NCBI GenBank assembly: GCA_017893485.1
Contig: CM030366.1
Coordinates: 183,795,681 to 183,859,680, forward strand
Direction of reading: 5' to 3'
DNA: 64,000 nucleotides
DNA from: Hemerocallis citrina
Taxonomy: Eukaryota > Streptophyta > Magnoliopsida > Asparagales > Asphodelaceae
Made by a program: the position numbers and the translations under genes. The notes below the pieces were generated by a model that was given only the letters and a program-made list of their open reading frames with translations, was not told where the DNA came from and searched no databases. The stretch's first letter is position 1. The number at the start of each line of letters is the position of its first letter. This document shows positions 11,205-19,757 of the stretch, piece by piece.

Positions 11205-12035
11205 ATGGTTATTATGTTCTAGGCCGATGGAAAGATGCATGACATCTTCAAGGATATGGTTGATTAAACCATTTCACCAAACGTTGTCATATTCAGCACA
11301 CCGATCCACTCTCTTTGCAAGCATGGAGAAACAGTCAAAGCACACAAGTTATTTTATCTGATGGTTGAAAGAGGTATGAAACCTAACTCCCTCAGCTCTG
11401 CTGCATGGGTATTGTATGGAAGGCCGCTATAGTGAGGTCACATAGTTGATCAGTTGTATGGGGCATCATGGTTTAACTCTCAACCTTTATAGTTTTAATG
11501 CACTAAGGGCTACAGTAAAAGCCAGGGATGGACGAGGCTATGAATATATTCGGGCAAATGCAGTAGGAAAAGTGAGGCGGACATTGTCATATACAAAACT
11601 TTACTAGATGGCTTTTGCAAGAGCAGATGTTCAAAATCTCATGGAACAAATGGCATATCAAGGGATATCTCCACATATTGTGACTTATAGCTCTTTGTTG
11701 AACGTTTATTGCAAGTTAGGGAAATTAAAAGATGACTTGAATTTTTTGTTACTGATCTGATGGAACAAGGAATTGAACTAAATGTAGTGACAATCAGTAC
11801 CTTAACTGATGCATTATGCAAAAAAGGAATGGTTAGAGAAGCAAACAAGTTACTGGATGTAATGAATCAAAGAGGTATAATGCCAAATGTTATTACATAT
11901 AGTACATTAATGTATGGATACTGTTTAATAAGAAAAGTGAATGAGGCAATGAATGTTTTTGATCTCATGATCTCTAATGGTCATGAGCCTAATGTTATTT
12001 CTTGTAGTACACTCGTCAACACTCGTCTTCATACC
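11205..12035 (+). pseudogene. P-class PPR gene relic (Rf-like)
   Basis: Conceptual translation shows consecutive 35-residue PPR motifs in changing frames. Examples are SPNVVIFSTPIHSLCKHGE, then VIYKTLLDGFCK, and in 11760..12038 two clean repeats: VTISTLTDALCKKGMVREA and VITYSTLMYGYCLIRKVNEA. Such tandem motifs bind organellar RNA, and the motif style resembles restorer-of-fertility-like PPR genes. Several stops (TAG, TAA, TGA) and frame changes interrupt the first half, and neither start nor organelle-targeting peptide is present. The relic lies directly between family B and the first OPT exon and may have been moved here with flanking DNA. Confidence 0.82.
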
Positions 12036-12301
12036 TAGTACATTAAGTTGCTTTTGGTTGGTTAAAAGGTTACTACTTGTCAGCTTCTGGATCTTCGATG
12101 TGTATGTTTTGTATTGGAAGATTTGTTTTGTGTGTGTGTGTGATTATATGAAACTGCAAACTTCAACCTATATTTGAACTTCCTTGAATCCTACGATCAA
12201 TATAACATATATTCTTACGTTTTTTACCTTTTATATTTCTTAGCACATTACTCTCGACAAACCAAATATATGTTTGAAGTCCTTTCAATTCTTGATAACA
12301 G
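12036..12301 (+). other. Intron-like sequence before OPT exon
   Basis: AT-rich, with a short TG run, ending in a pyrimidine-rich stretch and ACAG, a plausible 3' splice site for the OPT exon at 12302. No OPT N-terminal coding sequence is found here or further upstream in the window. Confidence 0.5.
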
Positions 12302-12871
12302 GGCACTTCATGAAAAAGAACCCCGACGAAAGGGCACCCTGGGGCGCGACCAGTTCTTCCTCTTGGCCTTCATCTGCAGCTTTGCTTACTACGCCTTCCC
12401 GGGCTACCTCTTTCAAATGCTTACCTCCCTCTCCTGGGTATGTTGGGTCTTCCCCTCCTCCATCCTTGCCCAACAACTTGGTTCTGGCCTCTCCGGCCTT
12501 GGAATTGGTGCAATCGGCCTTGATTGGTCTACCATCTCGTCCTACCTTGGCAGTCCCCTCGCATCCCCCTGGTTCGCCACTGCCAACGTCGCTGCTGGTT
12601 TTGTTCTCATTATGTATGTTCTTACCCCAATTGCTTACTGGCTCAACCTCTACAAGGCCAAGAACTTCCCCATATTTTCGGATGGGCTGTTTACAAGTAC
12701 AGGCCAGAACTATAATATCTCGAGCATCATAGATTCTGATTTCCATCTCGATATAAAGGCTTATGAGAAGAATGGCCCTCTCTATTTGAGTACCTTTTTT
12801 GCCATGACTTATGGTGTTGGATTTGCATCGCTTACAGCTACAATCACGCACGTGCTTCTCTTCCATGGGAG
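12302..12871 (+). CDS. OPT: Oligopeptide transporter (OPT family), first exon in window
   Basis: First of four joined exons (12302..12871, 17532..17787, 18678..18860, 19143..19757), encoding about 541 residues without a stop. The family imports small peptides or metal chelates with protons across membranes. This exon gives about 190 residues starting [19 protein letters not shown], with several membrane segments and [19 protein letters not shown], strongly like plant OPT proteins. It is entered in phase 2 after a good acceptor and leaves in phase 2 at AG|GTCAGT. Full-length OPTs have about 720 to 760 residues and carry an NPG motif in the part missing here, so roughly 200 N-terminal residues are absent. 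They may lie upstream of the window beyond the inserted elements, or may be lost. Confidence 0.88.
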
Positions 12872-13159
12872 GTCAGTGAAAATTCTCTGGTTCTCTACTG
12901 AAAATGTCCTTTTCAGGTGCTTAAGATAGTATGAAATGAAGTAATAATAACTCTACATGGGTTAAATCTGGGAAAAGAGAGCCTCACATATGTAGTTTAA
13001 CTTTTTCATATAAAATAACAGGTTTATGGATAATCCACACTTCTTATCATCATTTTTAATGTCTCTATGTCTGTGAACTAAAAACTGAAGACTACTTAAT
13101 TTTTTGATAATCAATACTACAGACTACCTACTTGCTTGTCTATCAAGTGGTAAATGACT

Positions 13160-13164
13160 TCACT
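13160..13164. repeat. Target-site duplication of the cold-shock copia element, left copy
   Basis: TCACT here and TCACT at 17378..17382 flank the element exactly. They show a single clean insertion into the OPT intron. Confidence 0.95.
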
Positions 13165-13303
13165 TGTAGAATTTTGTGAATCCCTTAATCTCATCTCAAT
13201 CAGTTTTTACAATATATGCTATGCTATATTGGGCTTACAAAACAATGGACCCAATGGACCCAATATACTAATAAAAGGACATTGTAATATATAATATCCA
13301 ACA
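13165..13303 (-). repeat. 3' LTR of the cold-shock copia element
   Basis: 139 bp, TGTTGG...TCTACA on the minus strand, identical to 17239..17377. Confidence 0.96.
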
Positions 13304-13310
13304 CCTCCCC

Positions 13311-16300
13311 TCAAGTTGGAGCATGGAGGTCACAAATGCCCAACTTGCGAAGTATGGGATCAAACTGCTGCCACCCCAGTGGCTTAGTGAAGATATCCGC
13401 CAATTGGGAAGTAGTCGAGACATGAGAAGCCACTATAGTGCCATCCAATATGGTATCCCTGATAAAATGCAAATCCACCTCAATGTGCTTACTGCGCTCG
13501 TGAAAAACTGGGTTATGTGCCAGATGCAATGCAGACTGACTGTCGCAATAAACCTGCATCGGATCCTCCTGCTGTATCCCAAAACAAGACAATAAACCCT
13601 TCAACCACTTCAGCTCACAGATAACAGCTGCGAGTGATCGATACTCAGCCTCAGCGGAAGAACGTGCAACAGTCGGTTGTCTCTTGGTCTTCCAAGAGAT
13701 AGGAGAAGAACCAAGAAAAACCAACCACCCAGTAGTAGATCTCCTAGTAGTGGGGCAGCTCGCCCAATCAGAATCACACCAGCCAGTAAGACCAAGCTCC
13801 GAATCAGATCTCAGAAGAATCCCCTGCCCTGGAGAATTCTTCAAATACCGTACCACCCTCAAAGCGGCCTGCCAATGATCCTCAAGTGGATGCTGTAAAA
13901 ACTGAGATAAAATGTGGACTGCATAAGCCAAATCAGGTCGAGTAAAAGACAAATAAATCAATCTCCCAACCAATCGACGATAAGCCTCGCCATCTGCCAA
14001 AGGAGAACTGCTGGACTTTGCTAACTTATGATTAGGCTCCATAGGAAAACTAGCAGGTCTAGACCCCAACAATCCACACTCAGAAATGATATCCAAAGCA
14101 TACTTCCTCTGACACAAAGAAATACCCTCAGGTCCTCGAGCAACCTCAATCCCAAGAAAATACTTTAGCACCCCAAGATCCTTCATGTGAAAACATGAGC
14201 TCAGATATGTCTTGAAGCTAGCCAAAGCATCTGAATCACTCCCAGAAATAATGAGATCATCCACATAAATCAACACATGCAACTCAACTTTCTCTTTCCG
14301 ATAGGAAAAGAGAGAATAATCAGAATGGGACTGAGAAAAACCATAAGACAATAGGGCAGAAGTAAGTTTGGCAAACCAACAACGTGGTGCCTGTTTCAGT
14401 CCATATAGGGACTTACGCAAGCGACACACCTTGTTGGGTTTACCAGATTCAAAACCTGGAGGCATCCTCATATACACCTCCTCTGTCAAATCCCCGTGAA
14501 GAAAGGCATTGTGCACATCCATCTGATGCAACATCCATCCCCTGACAGCAGCAACAGCTAAGAAAGTACGAACAGAAGTCATCTTAGCTACAGGTGCAAA
14601 GGTCTCAGAGTAATCAATACCTTCCACCTGGTGGTTACCAAATACGACCAGTCTGGCCTTTAGTCGCTCAACACTGCCATCCGAATTGTACTTGATCTTA
14701 TAAACCCACCTGTTGCCCAACGCCTTCTTCCCGGGCGGCAAGTCTGAAAGAGTCCAAGTCCCACTATCCTCCAGTGCCTGAATCTCTCTCTGCATGGCCT
14801 GTCGCCACCCCTCATCCTGAGAAGCCTGGCGATAAGAGGTGGGCTCAACACCTGCAGTAACAGCTGCAAGAAAGTCTCGATGTCCAGTAGAAAACAGATC
14901 ATAACTCAGATAGTGTGAAATAGGATACGGAGTACCTGAGGAAGTCGAGGAGCTAGGTGAACAGAGGCGAAGAGGGGTAATGTAATCATCAAGACGTGTC
15001 GGGCGAGCTTTGGTCCTCAAACCTCTACCCAAAACAGGTGGTGCAGAAACTACAGGGGTCGATGTAGCAACATCCAAAACTCCAGTGCCCGAAACAGAAG
15101 AACCCGAAACATCAGGGGCCGAGTGTGCAATATCGGGACCGCTGACGTCACTACTGCCAGGTATGATGTCATTGCTGACGTCAGCAGTGACGTCGGCAGC
15201 TTGGTCAGCTGTGACGTCGGCAGCAATGACGTGGGTAGGCCGTGCAACCTCAACATCCTCATCTCCAAAATAATCTACAAATGGACCCCTAATGTTTCCA
15301 CCAGTTTCTAATTGCACCCCCGGAAATTCATTTTCATAAAATTTCACATCTCGAGACACAAAAAGTTCACGAGACTCAACATCCAACAATTTCCATCCTT
15401 TCTTATCTAAGGGGTAACCCACAAAAATACATTTTCTGCTCCTACTAGCAAATTTATCCCGCTTGGATTGTAGATCAAAAGAGTAACATAAACATCCAAA
15501 AGCCCGCAAATTATCATATGAAGGTGGCTTCCCATACAACATCTCATAGGGCGACTTAAATGACACAATTCGGGAAGGCAATCTATTAATCAAGTAGCAG
15601 GCAGCCAGTACACATTCACCCCAATAATCCACAGGCAAACCACTTTGGAATAATAAAGCACGAGCTATATTCAAAATATGCCTATGTTTGCGTTCGACCC
15701 TTCCATTTTGTTGTGGTGTACCCACACATGAAGTCTGAAGAACTATCCCATGCTCAGAAAAATAAGGTTTCATACAATTAAACTCAGTTCCATTATCACT
15801 CCTAACACGACAAATATCAACACCAAATTGTCGTTTCACCATAGAAATAAATTTAATAAACATGGAACACACTTCAGTTTTGTCAGATAATAAAATAACC
15901 CAAACAGCTCTACTATAGTCATCAAGCAATGTCAAAAAATACCAAGCCCCAGAAACAGAGGCAACTCGATACGGACCCCAGAGATCACAATGTATCAATT
16001 CAAACATGTGAGTAGCTCGGCTATCACTATCAATAAAAATATCCCTAGTCTGCTTTGCCTTATGGCAAATGTCACACGCATTAGGTAAAGACAAACTAGT
16101 ACCACTAGCAAAAGGTAAATGTCGCATAACTCCATCAGAAGGGTGCCCCAATCTGCTGTGCCAAACACCGAAATCTGCTCCTCTCAAAGCTTGCAATCTC
16201 TGATGAAATGTCTCTGACATGGCACGCCAGATGTACAAACCCCCTTTGCGTTCACCAGCTCCAATCGCTTTTCTCGTACTTCGGTCCCGTATAACACACA

Positions 16301-16934
16301 AATCACGAGTAAAGGTAATATCACAGGTCCGATCATCCACCAAACGTGCAACAGAAATCAGATTGCATGTCAAATTAGGTACATACAGCACATCCTTCAA
16401 CACCATATCACCAGATAAAACCACTCTACCACGAATACGGGAATCAATAATAGTTCCATCAGGCAAAATCACAGGATTCGAATCACCCACAAAACAATCT
16501 ACTAAAAATGGTAAATGACCAGTAGCATGTATAGAAGCACCCGAATCAACAATCCAATCAACAGGAAAAGACTTACCCATAAGGGAAGAAATAAGGGAGG
16601 TAGTAGCAACATCACCACCACCTCCATAGCTTCCACCTCCACCTCCACTCCGTTGACCGCCGTAACCGCCACCCCCGCCGCCTCCAGAGCCGCGGGAATC
16701 AGATCCCCGAACTGGAGCGCCATCGGGACCAGAAACGTCGACCGCCTTTGTGCGTCCGTCGTCGCCAGTAGAGACGACGTACTCAACGGTCTCTCCCTCA
16801 GCTAGGGATCGGAAGCCGTCGGACTTGATGGAGGACTGGTGGACGAAGAGGTCCTCGGATCCATCGTTGGGAGTGATGAATCCGAAGCCTTTGGTGCCGT
16901 TGAACCACTTGACGGTGCCGGTTAAACGAGACAT
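13311..16934 (-). CDS. Fusion polyprotein: cold-shock domain + Gly-rich tail + copia PR-IN-RT-RNase H
   Basis: 1207 residues, intact. Residues 1..70 are a plant cold-shock domain with KGFGFIT (15..21, RNP1) and DLFVHQS (28..34, RNP2), as in CSP/GRP2 RNA chaperones. Residues 82..107 are Gly-rich. The protease site DSGAS starts at 130. Integrase has H259, H264, C287, C290 and the triad D317, D380, E414. RT has [12 protein letters not shown] near 803..814 and YVDD at 890..893. RNase H has D1054, E1095 and D1131, and ends at [13 protein letters not shown]. The capsid domain and zinc knuckle are absent; fusion lies between about residues 108 and 120. A spacer at 560..635 repeats DVTAD and DVSG. 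The start is the Met that aligns with cold-shock proteins; the stop lies seven bases from the LTR. The open frame and identical LTRs imply very recent activity. Capsid must come from another element unless the new N-terminus substitutes. Confidence 0.95.
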
Positions 16935-17226
16935 TAGAGGAGTATGAGGAAGAAGATGTAAGAAACCCTAACCCTAGACATGAGAGGAGGAGCTTTTGGG
17001 TTCTGGGCGACGAGGTAGGGGGCGGCGCTACAGGAGTTGGGAGCGCCGGAGGAGATGAAGGCCAGGGGGAGGAATTCAATCTGGGTGTTGGGTCGACGGG
17101 AGAGGAAGCAATGGACCCAAAAGCAAGGGAGAGGAAGCAATTCGATCTGGCGGCGCTACAGCAATGGAAGTCGATTAGGGTAAATTTAGATTAGGGTTTT
17201 TGGGGTAATTTTGGAGAAGAAAGGAG
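16935..17226 (-). other. 5' leader of the fusion element, resembling a host 5' UTR
   Basis: 292 bases between primer site and ATG. The leader is C/T-rich with two telo-box motifs (AACCCTAA near 17190, TAGGGTTAGGGTTTC near 16965) and repeats of CTGTAGCGCCGCC and TTGCTTCCTCTCCC. This is the style of plant 5' UTRs for translation-related genes, which suggests capture of a transcript including its leader. One short upstream ATG (CATGTCTAGG) is present. Confidence 0.5.
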
Positions 17227-17238
17227 GCTCTGATACCA
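17227..17238 (-). other. Primer binding site for tRNA-iMet (fusion element)
   Basis: TGGTATCAGAGC on the minus strand, directly abutting the 5' LTR with no spacer. Confidence 0.93.
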
Positions 17239-17377
17239 TGTAGAATTTTGTGAATCCCTTAATCTCATCTCAATCAGTTTTTACAATATATGCTATGCTA
17301 TATTGGGCTTACAAAACAATGGACCCAATGGACCCAATATACTAATAAAAGGACATTGTAATATATAATATCCAACA
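17239..17377 (-). repeat. 5' LTR of the cold-shock copia element
   Basis: 139 bp, identical to the 3' LTR. A TATA-like ATTATATATTAC lies near 17357..17369 on the minus strand. Confidence 0.96.
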
Positions 17378-17382
17378 TCACT
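17378..17382. repeat. Target-site duplication of the cold-shock copia element, right copy
   Basis: TCACT, matching 13160..13164. Confidence 0.95.
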
Positions 17383-17531
17383 ACTAAATTAAGACCCCTT
17401 AACTAAAGTGAAACTATCAATTTTTCCTCTTTTTTAAACATAAAATTGTGAAATGAGAAATTTGACTTAATAATTAAGCAATTTATGAATATCATGTTAT
17501 GATCGAAATTACTAAGAAATAATGTGAACAG

Positions 17532-17787
17532 AGAGATATGGCAACTGAGCAAGTCAGCATTCAAGGAGAAAAAGATGGATGTGCACACAAGGTTGATGAG
17601 TAAATACAAGCAAGTACCAGAGTGGTGGTTCATTAGCATCCTTATTGTCAACATTGCACTCACCATCTTCGCCTGCGAGTACTACATCGACCAACTCCAG
17701 CTCCCATGGTGGGGTGTCTTGCTCGCGTGCTCAATCGCCATCTTCTTCACTCTTCCTATTGGTATTATCACTGCCACTACTAACCAG
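17532..17787 (+). CDS. OPT: OPT transporter, second exon in window
   Basis: Acceptor GAACAG|A completes the split Arg codon from the previous exon (phase 2). The 85 residues include [21 protein letters not shown], a cytosolic loop conserved in OPT proteins, then two membrane segments and a [14 protein letters not shown] end. The donor is CAG|GTACTA, phase 0. The intron before it is 4660 bases because of the inserted copia element. Confidence 0.9.
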
Positions 17788-18677
17788 GTACTACTCAGTC
17801 CTTGTTTGGTTGCCTTACTTTGGAGACATAATTTTCCGCTCAAGCCATTTAATAGACTTTTTCAGTTTTTCTAAAAGACTTTTGATATTTACATATAAAG
17901 TTGAAACTATTCTCTTTTCAAGCATTTTGGGTAGAAAATGTCATTACTTCTTACTATAAATAGAGTTGAAATCTATACAATATATTATGCTAAACCACTT
18001 TTGGTCCAAGGATTTTTCTAATTTTTTCTTTTTAAAACAAAAAAAAAAAAACAAAAAACAAATGTGGAGGCAACTCCCCACCCTTTCTCCATTTAAAACC
18101 TTAAAAAGCGTGCAATATTATTTAGAGAATTTTTTTTAAAATAGTTTTGTTATTTTCTCATTTTTAAAAAATTTTGTGCAATATATTGCACAGGGTTATA
18201 CCAGTATTTCTTCGGATGAAAAAAAACTCCATCTGAAATGTGTGTTGTACATACAATGTACTATTATATGGTATGTTTGTTAGGGGTGATTTTATCATAA
18301 GAAAGTTTGATAGTCAGAAACTTCTTTTTTCATGAATGCAATCAATCTGAAATCCGAAACCAAAAGTATTCCTCGCCCAGATGCGCTCCACTTTTTCATT
18401 GTAATAAATTATATTTGATTATATTATGTTGTTAATGGTTGAAACTTGAAACATGCTGTTCTTTAGTCAAAAGATAAAACGAAAAAATTACTTGAAATGA
18501 AACAAGTTGAGGGAATTTTTTTTCAAGATTTTTTTTTTTTTTTTGGAAGTGTTCAAATTGGATCTGAAAATCCATGATAAATTGAATGACTGGACACCTG
18601 ATATAAAATTCCTTAGTTCTATTATACTTTGATTAGTTAGATATAATTTCATTAATATGAAGTAAATATTGTAACAG
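17788..18677 (+). other. OPT intron
   Basis: 890 bases, AT-rich, GTACTA...TAACAG. Poly-A, poly-T and poly-AT runs (18038..18060, 18527..18545) but no recognisable gene or element. Confidence 0.75.
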
Positions 18678-19142: not shown

Positions 19143-19757
19143 GTGGTAGGAACCTTGGTAGCAGCGATTGTCTACCTAGGGACAGCCTGGTGGCTCATGG
19201 ACTCCATCCCCAACATCTGCGACAGAAATCTTCTCTCCTCTGATAGCCCCTGGACATGCCCTGGTGACCATGTCTTCTATGACGCCTCCGTCATCTGGGG
19301 CCTCATCGGGCCTCGGCGCATCTTTGGTGACCTAGGAATGTACTCCAACATCAACTGGTTCTTTCTCGCAGGTGCCATTGCTCCAATCCTTGTCTGGCTG
19401 GCCCACCGTGCCTTCCCTACCCAATCTTGGATTCGTCTCATCAATGCCCCTGTCCTCATCGGTGCTACTGGCCAAATGCCGCCAGCAACAGCCGTCAACT
19501 ACACCACGTGGATCATGATGGGCTTTTTGTCAGGGTTTGTGGTGTACAGGTACAGAAGGGAGTGGTGGCAGAGGCATAATTATGTGCTGTCAGGGGCATT
19601 GGATGCAGGGCTGGCTTTTATGGGGGTGGTGTTGTATTTGTGTTTAGGAGTGAAGGATATTAGTCTCAGTTGGTGGGGGAATGACTTGGATGGATGCCCA
19701 TTGGCTTCTTGTCCTACTGCAAAAGGGATTCTTGTCGATGGCTGCCCTCTTTCTTGA
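19143..19757 (+). CDS. OPT: OPT transporter, last exon
   Basis: 204 codons to TGA. It contains [50 protein letters not shown] and a C-terminal [15 protein letters not shown]. These features, including the conserved cysteines and final membrane segments, are typical of plant OPT C-termini. No stop or frameshift interrupts it and codon use looks like a host gene, so the 3' two-thirds of the gene is under constraint or was cut off recently. Whether a full protein is made depends on upstream exons not seen in this window. Confidence 0.93.

Follow-up and report, generated by a model that had tools for sequence, protein, structure and literature searches.

The 64,000-nucleotide stretch of Hemerocallis citrina DNA analysed here (the window; positions 183,795,681 to 183,859,680 of contig CM030366.1, assembly GCA_017893485.1) contains a complete Ty1/copia retrotransposon in which a host cold-shock domain (CSD) stands in place of gag. 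We lean, with moderate confidence, towards the reading that this element belongs to a gag-less copia family that parasitizes a gag-bearing sister family and acquires RNA-binding cassettes from host genes through template switching, each cassette probably tethering Pol to RNA.

A copia element with a cold-shock domain and no gag

An earlier note on this DNA had described an intact open reading frame (ORF) of 1,207 codons leading from a plant-type CSD into pol, with capsid and zinc knuckle gone. Translation and Pfam bore out this frame, RNP1 (KGFGFIT) and RNP2 (DLFVHQS) are both present in the CSD, no capsid or zf-CCHC family was matched in the ORF at E<=0.001, and the captured part of the host cold-shock protein (CSP) ends before the CCHC motif. 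The features of the element are as follows.

13165..17377, minus strand: complete gag-less Ty1/copia element, 4,213 bp, recognised by its pair of long terminal repeats (LTRs), target site duplication (TSD), primer binding site (PBS) and polypurine tract (PPT)
17239..17377, minus strand: 5' LTR, 139 bp, TGTTGG...CTACA, no difference from the 3' LTR
13165..13303, minus strand: 3' LTR, 139 bp, from the comparison of the LTR pair
17378..17382, with the second copy at 13160-13164, minus strand: TSD, AGTGA, 5 bp
17226..17238, minus strand: PBS, TGGTATCAGAGCC, which we take to be of the initiator-Met type
16935..17238, minus strand: untranslated leader, 304 nt, including the PBS; parts in common with the gag-bearing sister L052
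16636..16986, minus strand: captured segment of a host cold-shock gene like L019 (part of the 5' untranslated region (UTR) and the coding start), 93.7% over 351 bp to L019
13311..16934, minus strand: single ORF, 1,207 codons, no internal stop on translation
16728..16922, minus strand: CSD, residues 5-69 (PF00313, 7.3e-25)
16605..16709, minus strand: Gly-rich tail, whose 12-aa stretch fits the GRP-type RRM copy L048 and not the host CSP L019
16569..16625, minus strand: joint, 19 aa, remnant of the gag N-terminus across the capsid/nucleocapsid deletion (in L052 gag, VGGGGNVATAPLISPL ... NSDRLMGKS)
16335..16556, minus strand: aspartic protease (Pol_BBD/protease match), residues 127-200, DSGA (PF22936)
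Residues 233-295 of the ORF: gag_pre-integrs (Pfam)
15714..16010, minus strand: integrase core (rve), residues 309-407 (PF00665)
Residues 467-538 of the ORF: SH3_retrovirus (Pfam)
14037..14759, minus strand: reverse transcriptase (RT; RVT_2), residues 726-966, YVDD (PF07727, 4.2e-76)
13314..14027, minus strand: presumed RNase H region, residues 970-1207, placed by position (no Pfam match) in the usual copia domain order
13304..13312, minus strand: PPT, GAGGGGAGG

Protease, integrase and RT thus stand in the order of Ty1/copia, together with the LTR pair, a 5-bp TSD, a Met-type PBS and a PPT; a Gag with capsid and CCHC was not found. The LTRs are identical at 139/139 positions, an initial repeat score of 97% being lower because that alignment extended beyond the LTR ends. 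We rejected the idea of a gag hidden elsewhere in the element, as the gap between LTR and ORF measures just 304 nt and the fusion loci described below lack a gag match at E<=1e-60 (145 of 7,175 candidates scored).

Copies of the fusion in the genome

A genome search with PF00313 gave 33 places, and all 32 beyond the window's own were retrieved. Eighteen copies, the window's included, combine a CSD with copia pol and an LTR pair. Their LTR pairs show no mismatch in 11 copies, one in four, two in two, and six with gaps in one (L014); a 5-bp TSD was scored in 13 of the 18, and pol diverges among them by 0.1-1.5%. In 12 copies the ORF spans 1,199-1,217 aa, stops or frameshifts breaking it in the other six, and in two of these 12 the active site of the protease is altered (DSSA in L015, NSGA in L023). 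Most CSD copies are therefore very young, and some are not competent. RNP1 and RNP2 are intact in all 18.

The earlier note had named two findings that would undo its case: that no other copy spans the joint, or that every other copy has a gag. Neither holds, since 18 insertions cross the joint between CSD and pol, and gag is confined to a distinct sister group, with no gag match at E<=1e-60 at the 42 fusion loci. Chance, an artefact of assembly and one lone dead recombinant are excluded as explanations: the 18 CSD insertions lie on many contigs with differing flanks, LTR pairs and 13 TSDs, and 24 more fusion loci stand beside them.

The CSDs of the 18 copies form three classes, each matching one host cold-shock gene. 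Class A (five copies) is 92.6-94.0% identical to L019 over 351 bp, class B (four copies) 96-97% to L011/L012 over ~305 bp, and class C (nine copies) as much as 99.2% to L016 over 371-379 bp. Counted across the initial 225-228 coding bases, class C differs from L016 by 0-2 substitutions, class B from L011/L012 by 3-7 and class A from L019 by 7-11, so L019 may not be the exact donor of the class A CSD. The host CSPs carry CCHC knuckles beyond a Gly-rich stretch, and the captured segment stops within that stretch, before the knuckles. The pol tree of the 18 copies, unrooted and weakly resolved, keeps the classes apart. L011 (C9) and L012 (C514) are near-identical host CSP loci, one on a chromosome and the other on an unplaced contig, and are perhaps alternative haplotypes.

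The gag-bearing sister and the joint

The earlier note had called for a gag-bearing sister family, which was found. L052, the 5' part of one member and the single copy whose gag letters were inspected, has a related LTR (73% over 134 bp) and related blocks in its leader. Its gag opens with MAGGEAKDQ...ADATEKAVLAAKMSAAVAALQVGGGGNVATAPLISPL, continues with Retrotran_gag_3 and a CCHC motif (recognised by eye; Pfam has no CCHC entry there) and ends in NSDRLMGKS ahead of the protease. At least 20 gag matches occur in the genome, 11 of 20 within open frames at least 1,290 aa long.

In class B and in L048, ADATEKAVLAAKMSAA(V) and then the 19-aa stretch lead directly to NSDRLMGKS or a near match, and L013, L031 and L048 have 114-115 bp in common with L052 at 97-98%. 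Because the gag start of these copies runs straight into an L052-type NSDRLMGKS, capsid and nucleocapsid must have been excised in frame, with the Gly-rich gag start retained. In the other classes inspected the gag remnant consists only of the 19-aa stretch or, in the RanBP copies, of GGDVATT. The inspected joints fall in Gly codons beside the gag remnant GGGGN; the RanBP joint requires just GG. In L055 (RRM) and L057 (SERBP-2) the gag remnant is changed to APDRGKAVLGVLQVGGGGN despite their different cassettes, a sign of recombination between elements.

Interchangeable host RNA-binding cassettes

The claim that a host CSD stands instead of gag proved right and incomplete, the CSD being one of several interchangeable cassettes. 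An LTR search of the genome, in which 40 of 134 candidates were scored, gave 42 places, some pairs being new, and 11 of these loci (L041-L051) were inspected at their 5' ends. Ten of the 11 share the joint and the start of pol with the CSD copies, yet have no CSD. At the joint L043 carries no domain, and the other nine carry SERBP1/Stm1-type cassettes (L041, L044 and L045 from one donor, L046, called SERBP-2, from another), the RRMs of two GRP-type proteins (L047, L048), an RZ-1-type RRM plus CCHC (L049, L050) or RanBP2 zinc fingers (L051). Pfam assigned Stm1_N, RRM_1, RRM_1+zf-CCHC and, just over the cut-off, Zn_ribbon_RanBP; beyond these families, the donor names GRP, RZ-1, SERBP1, chloroplast RNP and GR-RBP are presumptive. 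At one other locus, L042 (C610:512400-513700), the LTR starts lie ~230 bp apart and enclose only the 3' end of pol, with no pol ORF.

A genome search with the protease-integrase part, in which the best 150 of 46,837 candidates were scored, gave 64 places at an identity of at least 92%, the next best reaching 51%. Their matches begin at query residue 1, 2 or 4 in 43 cases and at residue 8 or 9 in 20, one being partial. A gag match adjoins 18 of these 20 and also C285, which was hence placed in the gag group, leaving 42 fusion loci and 21 gag-type loci. In the gag search at E<=1e-60, with 145 of 7,175 candidates scored, no match fell at any of the 42 fusion loci. The two gag-type loci without a gag match, C11:15914403 and C3:297827566, are possibly truncated, or gag-deleted copies without a cassette.

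Of these fusion loci, 41 could be typed; six further ones were inspected (L053-L058, three of them with Pfam) and seven typed from coordinates alone. The census reads CSD 18, RanBP2 seven, SERBP-type five, RZ-1 four, GRP RRM two, chloroplast-RNP-like RRM two, mitochondrial-type GR-RBP RRM one, other RRM one (C412, typed solely from an RRM match immediately upstream of its protease), none one and untyped one (C2:277731293). A host RNA-binding domain is thus present at 40 of 42 loci, in 22 of them one other than a CSD, and the donors number about 12: three CSPs and about nine other host RNA-binding proteins. The earlier note had also suggested that the fusion takes over the RNA-handling part of gag. 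The nine or so additional donors strengthen this idea, under which the CSD itself may act in replication.

The main rival explanation, which we regard as rather unlikely, treats the cassettes as inert hitchhikers: RT would jump to whichever mRNAs are abundant and contain GGN repeats, an in-frame start of any kind would be tolerated, Pol would act in cis with Gag supplied in trans, and Gly-rich plant mRNAs would encode RNA-binding proteins incidentally. The position of the inspected joints, in Gly codons beside GGGGN, is what this explanation expects. Plants also produce many Gly-rich proteins that do not bind RNA, however, and the donors are nonetheless RNA-binding proteins, about 12 of them with several domain types across 40 of the 42 copies; furthermore, the RanBP joint needs no more than GG, and RNP1 and RNP2 have stayed intact in every CSD copy.

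Capture from spliced host mRNA

Whether the cassettes were copied from RNA can be read from donors whose genes are split. Four RZ-1 elements match residues 1-129 without a break, and in the host RZ-1 loci residues 1-39 are separated from the rest by ~11.8 kb (C6), 10.7 kb (C11) and 6.2 kb (C547); with identities of 84-97%, these loci perhaps do not include the exact donor. Two chloroplast-RNP-like elements match residues 1-95, and the host locus on C7 has residues 30-65 and 65-95 about 1 kb apart. The RRM of L047 matches residues 1-93, and its closest host place (98%) begins at residue 38, no first exon of this GRP gene being found above the search cut-off. These splits were read from match coordinates. 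Since the elements run on without a break at positions where three of the donor genes are interrupted, capture from spliced mRNA is supported for RZ-1, for the chloroplast-RNP-like protein and, more weakly, for GRP. The CSP donors align unbroken over the captured part and are hence uninformative on splicing; by eye, a TATAAA lies ~30-40 nt upstream of the captured part in L016 and L019 and ~70 nt upstream in L012. The RanBP cassette is 100% identical to a frame of 142 aa on C1 that has no pol match, so that this capture is very young.

The CSP captures bear on a further explanation, namely that the benefit lies in the host 5'UTR and start codon (for translation, or for escape from small RNAs directed at the old leader) and not in the RNA-binding domain. 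In all three, the captured 5'UTR of the host starts close to where the cap site is presumed to lie; such a benefit would leave the RNA-binding coding part at 40 of the 42 loci unexplained, and we consider it very improbable.

Serial exchange of cassettes

A breakpoint comparison of 16 representatives suggests that one cassette has displaced another. L048, with its RRM, and class B share a gag-remnant tail of 144 bp at 96.5-97.9%, and the 12-aa tail of class A matches the GRP tail of L048 (47 bp, 96%), where the host CSP L019 differs. Two class C copies, L018 and L022, match class A at 100% over its leading 54 bp and its final 59 bp, on either side of an L016-type CSD, and a third, L015, has part of the class A leader at 98% and part of the class A tail at 97%. 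The SERBP-2 copy L046 matches class A at 100% over the leading 37 bp and the final 92 bp, and the RanBP copy L051 carries the first 105 bp of the class C leader at 98%. In our own reading, the RRM would have come first, the CSDs next and the others later, each displacing its predecessor.

The leader of L049 and L050 contains a second TTATCAGAGCCTCTAATGTC stretch, resembling an extra PBS followed by the beginning of a class A leader, and this arrangement has the look of a template-switch scar.

Selection and points that weigh against a working cassette

Among the 18 CSD copies, pol changes common to at least two copies comprise 28 nonsynonymous (N) and 26 synonymous (S) changes, where 70% N would be expected (p=0.0035), and singletons 82 N and 42 S (p=0.19, three stops excluded); these counts, like those for the CSD, treat the copies without adjustment for shared descent. 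Because the shared changes fall below the expected share of N, the family's own Pol has been kept working during its gag-less spread.

Several observations speak against our reading. Changes in the CSD within elements number 8 N and 8 S (p about 0.05-0.07, events summed by hand), which is suggestive only of selection on the CSD, and class C alone has 4 N to 1 S. This weak signal, with class C seemingly neutral, is what inert cassettes would give, as is L043 (C8:222570300-222571660), whose N-terminus amounts to merely 13 aa without any RNA-binding domain. The RGG part is missing from the SERBP copies L041 and L046, the RanBP copy L054 is internally scrambled, and the pol tree by itself does not place class C within class A. 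The inspected donors have Gly-rich stretches, or at least GG at the joint, so that donors may have been chosen simply through their homology with the gag remnant. Finally, the short-leader copies retain just some 15 nt at the start of the leader, including the PBS, which speaks against packaging through a leader signal shared with a helper; the window element and L047 do have leader blocks in common with L052 (for the window element, 83 bp at 96%, 82 bp at 91% and 26 bp at 100%).

Both LTRs of L043 are 99% like those of the window element, and its leader shares 250 bp with that of the RZ-1 copy L049 at 99.6%.

A proposed mechanism

Under the reading that we prefer, the family is gag-less and recently active. 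Its history began with the in-frame deletion that the comparison with the sister shows, by which capsid and nucleocapsid were removed and the Gly-rich gag start was left with an intact protease, integrase, RT and RNase H. During minus-strand synthesis, RT would then leave the element RNA for a spliced mRNA of the host within a shared GGN (Gly) tract, copy the host coding start and 5'UTR, and return to the element RNA near the PBS. Such polymerase steps would take place in particles, and with each capture Pol would gain an in-frame RNA-binding domain from the host, the 5' end being replaced repeatedly. Since the fusion has no recognised capsid-forming part, the sister probably supplies Gag. By analogy with BARE2, the element RNA is most likely packaged in sister particles, and the cassette probably ties Pol to RNA, through which the Gag-less Pol would enter these particles in the way proposed for foamy virus Pol. 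The families of RNA-binding domain on Pol were recognised from sequence alone.

Replication might instead proceed without Gag, the fusion of RNA-binding domain and Pol forming a cytoplasmic, capsid-free ribonucleoprotein (RNP) like that of LINE ORF1p/ORF2p. In agreement with this, fusion loci outnumber gag-type loci (42 and 21 in one search), and in many copies the leader is nearly all replaced, with no obvious shared packaging signal. Known LTR elements rely on Gag particles, however, and the same genome holds gag-bearing relatives with long open frames; we judge this route improbable.

Gag is regarded as indispensable to LTR elements, since the particle is made of it and RNA and Pol meet through it. 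Our results raise the possibility that the second of these jobs has passed, repeatedly and recently, to host RNA-binding proteins of unrelated folds, recently because three CSD donors lie within 1.5% of pol divergence. A bolder proposal, which we put forward tentatively and think unlikely, is that any generic host RNA-binding domain on Pol suffices for mobility, in borrowed particles or as an RNP, and is renewed continually from host mRNAs; if so, the dozen or so donors of several domain types would amount to a natural domain-swap experiment on the roles required of Gag. The gag-bearing relative in the same genome allows comparison and makes the needs of Pol in finding its RNA directly testable. 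The captures also suggest that the RNA of retrotransposons often recombines with spliced mRNAs of the host, by which new fusion genes can arise.

Insertion site of the window element

The element has inserted in antisense orientation into an OPT transporter gene recognised by Pfam, with an exon on either side.

12174-12929, 17524-17874 and 19143-19757, plus strand: OPT oligopeptide transporter exons, from Pfam OPT matches flanking the element

One flank stops at position 331 of the OPT profile and the other begins at 329, so the element presumably sits in an intron. Among the proteins listed, none exceeds 84% identity to the OPT exon, and the best named one, from Triticum, reaches 80%, which points to a flowering plant. 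A short open frame with PPR repeats adjoins the OPT gene at 11760-12038 (plus strand).

Comparison with known systems

The closest copia proteins among the matches listed are at most 57% identical to the window element, so its close relatives seem to lie outside the protein database searched. Residues 1-120, searched against 5.8 billion proteins, gave five matches, for which the precomputed Pfam annotation lists no copia domains. Plant copia elements with Retrotran_gag_3 have the same pol domains, their gag family being that of the sister L052, and many carry gag, unlike the window family. In the part consulted of a survey of plant elements, GAG went unidentified in 442 of 5,410 copia elements, which was blamed on divergence, few conserved sites and stop codons (PMC6317226); gag-less fusions like ours could therefore have been overlooked in such surveys. 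None of the literature matches listed, from a corpus that leaves out most subscription journals, describes exchangeable host RNA-binding domains that replace gag.

LTR elements that capture genes, and parasites that lack gag, are already known from the passages cited here. BARE2 of barley is described there as a Ty1/copia parasite packaged by BARE1 (PMC3735527). Like it, the window family is copia without a usable Gag, outnumbers a related gag-bearing partner that coexists in the genome, and would be packaged in trans. BARE2 lost the gag start codon and retains conserved packaging signals (PMC3735527), whereas the window family has capsid and nucleocapsid deleted, a host RNA-binding domain on Pol and, in many copies, a leader mostly replaced. 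Bs1 of maize is likewise an LTR element with several host gene pieces, from ATPase, xylan endohydrolase and glucanase genes according to the passages cited (PMC13317346, PMC7264820). As in Bs1, host exons occur without introns within our elements (RZ-1, chloroplast-RNP-like and, more weakly, GRP). In contrast to Bs1, the cassettes are single, occupy one site, are swapped among copies, and all the recognised ones are RNA-binding.

The Pol of foamy viruses is not known to carry a host RNA-binding domain. It resembles the Pol of the window family in being made without Gag, and an RNA bridge has been proposed for its entry into particles (PMC3705302, passages cited), a mechanism that might apply to our family as well. 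Accessory domains in retrotransposon polyproteins, among them a viral SF1 helicase, a chromodomain and a DnaQ exonuclease, offer the closing comparison (PMC6338049, passages cited). There too an extra domain is translationally fused to an LTR-element protein; those elements add a domain, whereas in the window family the domain replaces gag, derives from the host and is interchangeable.

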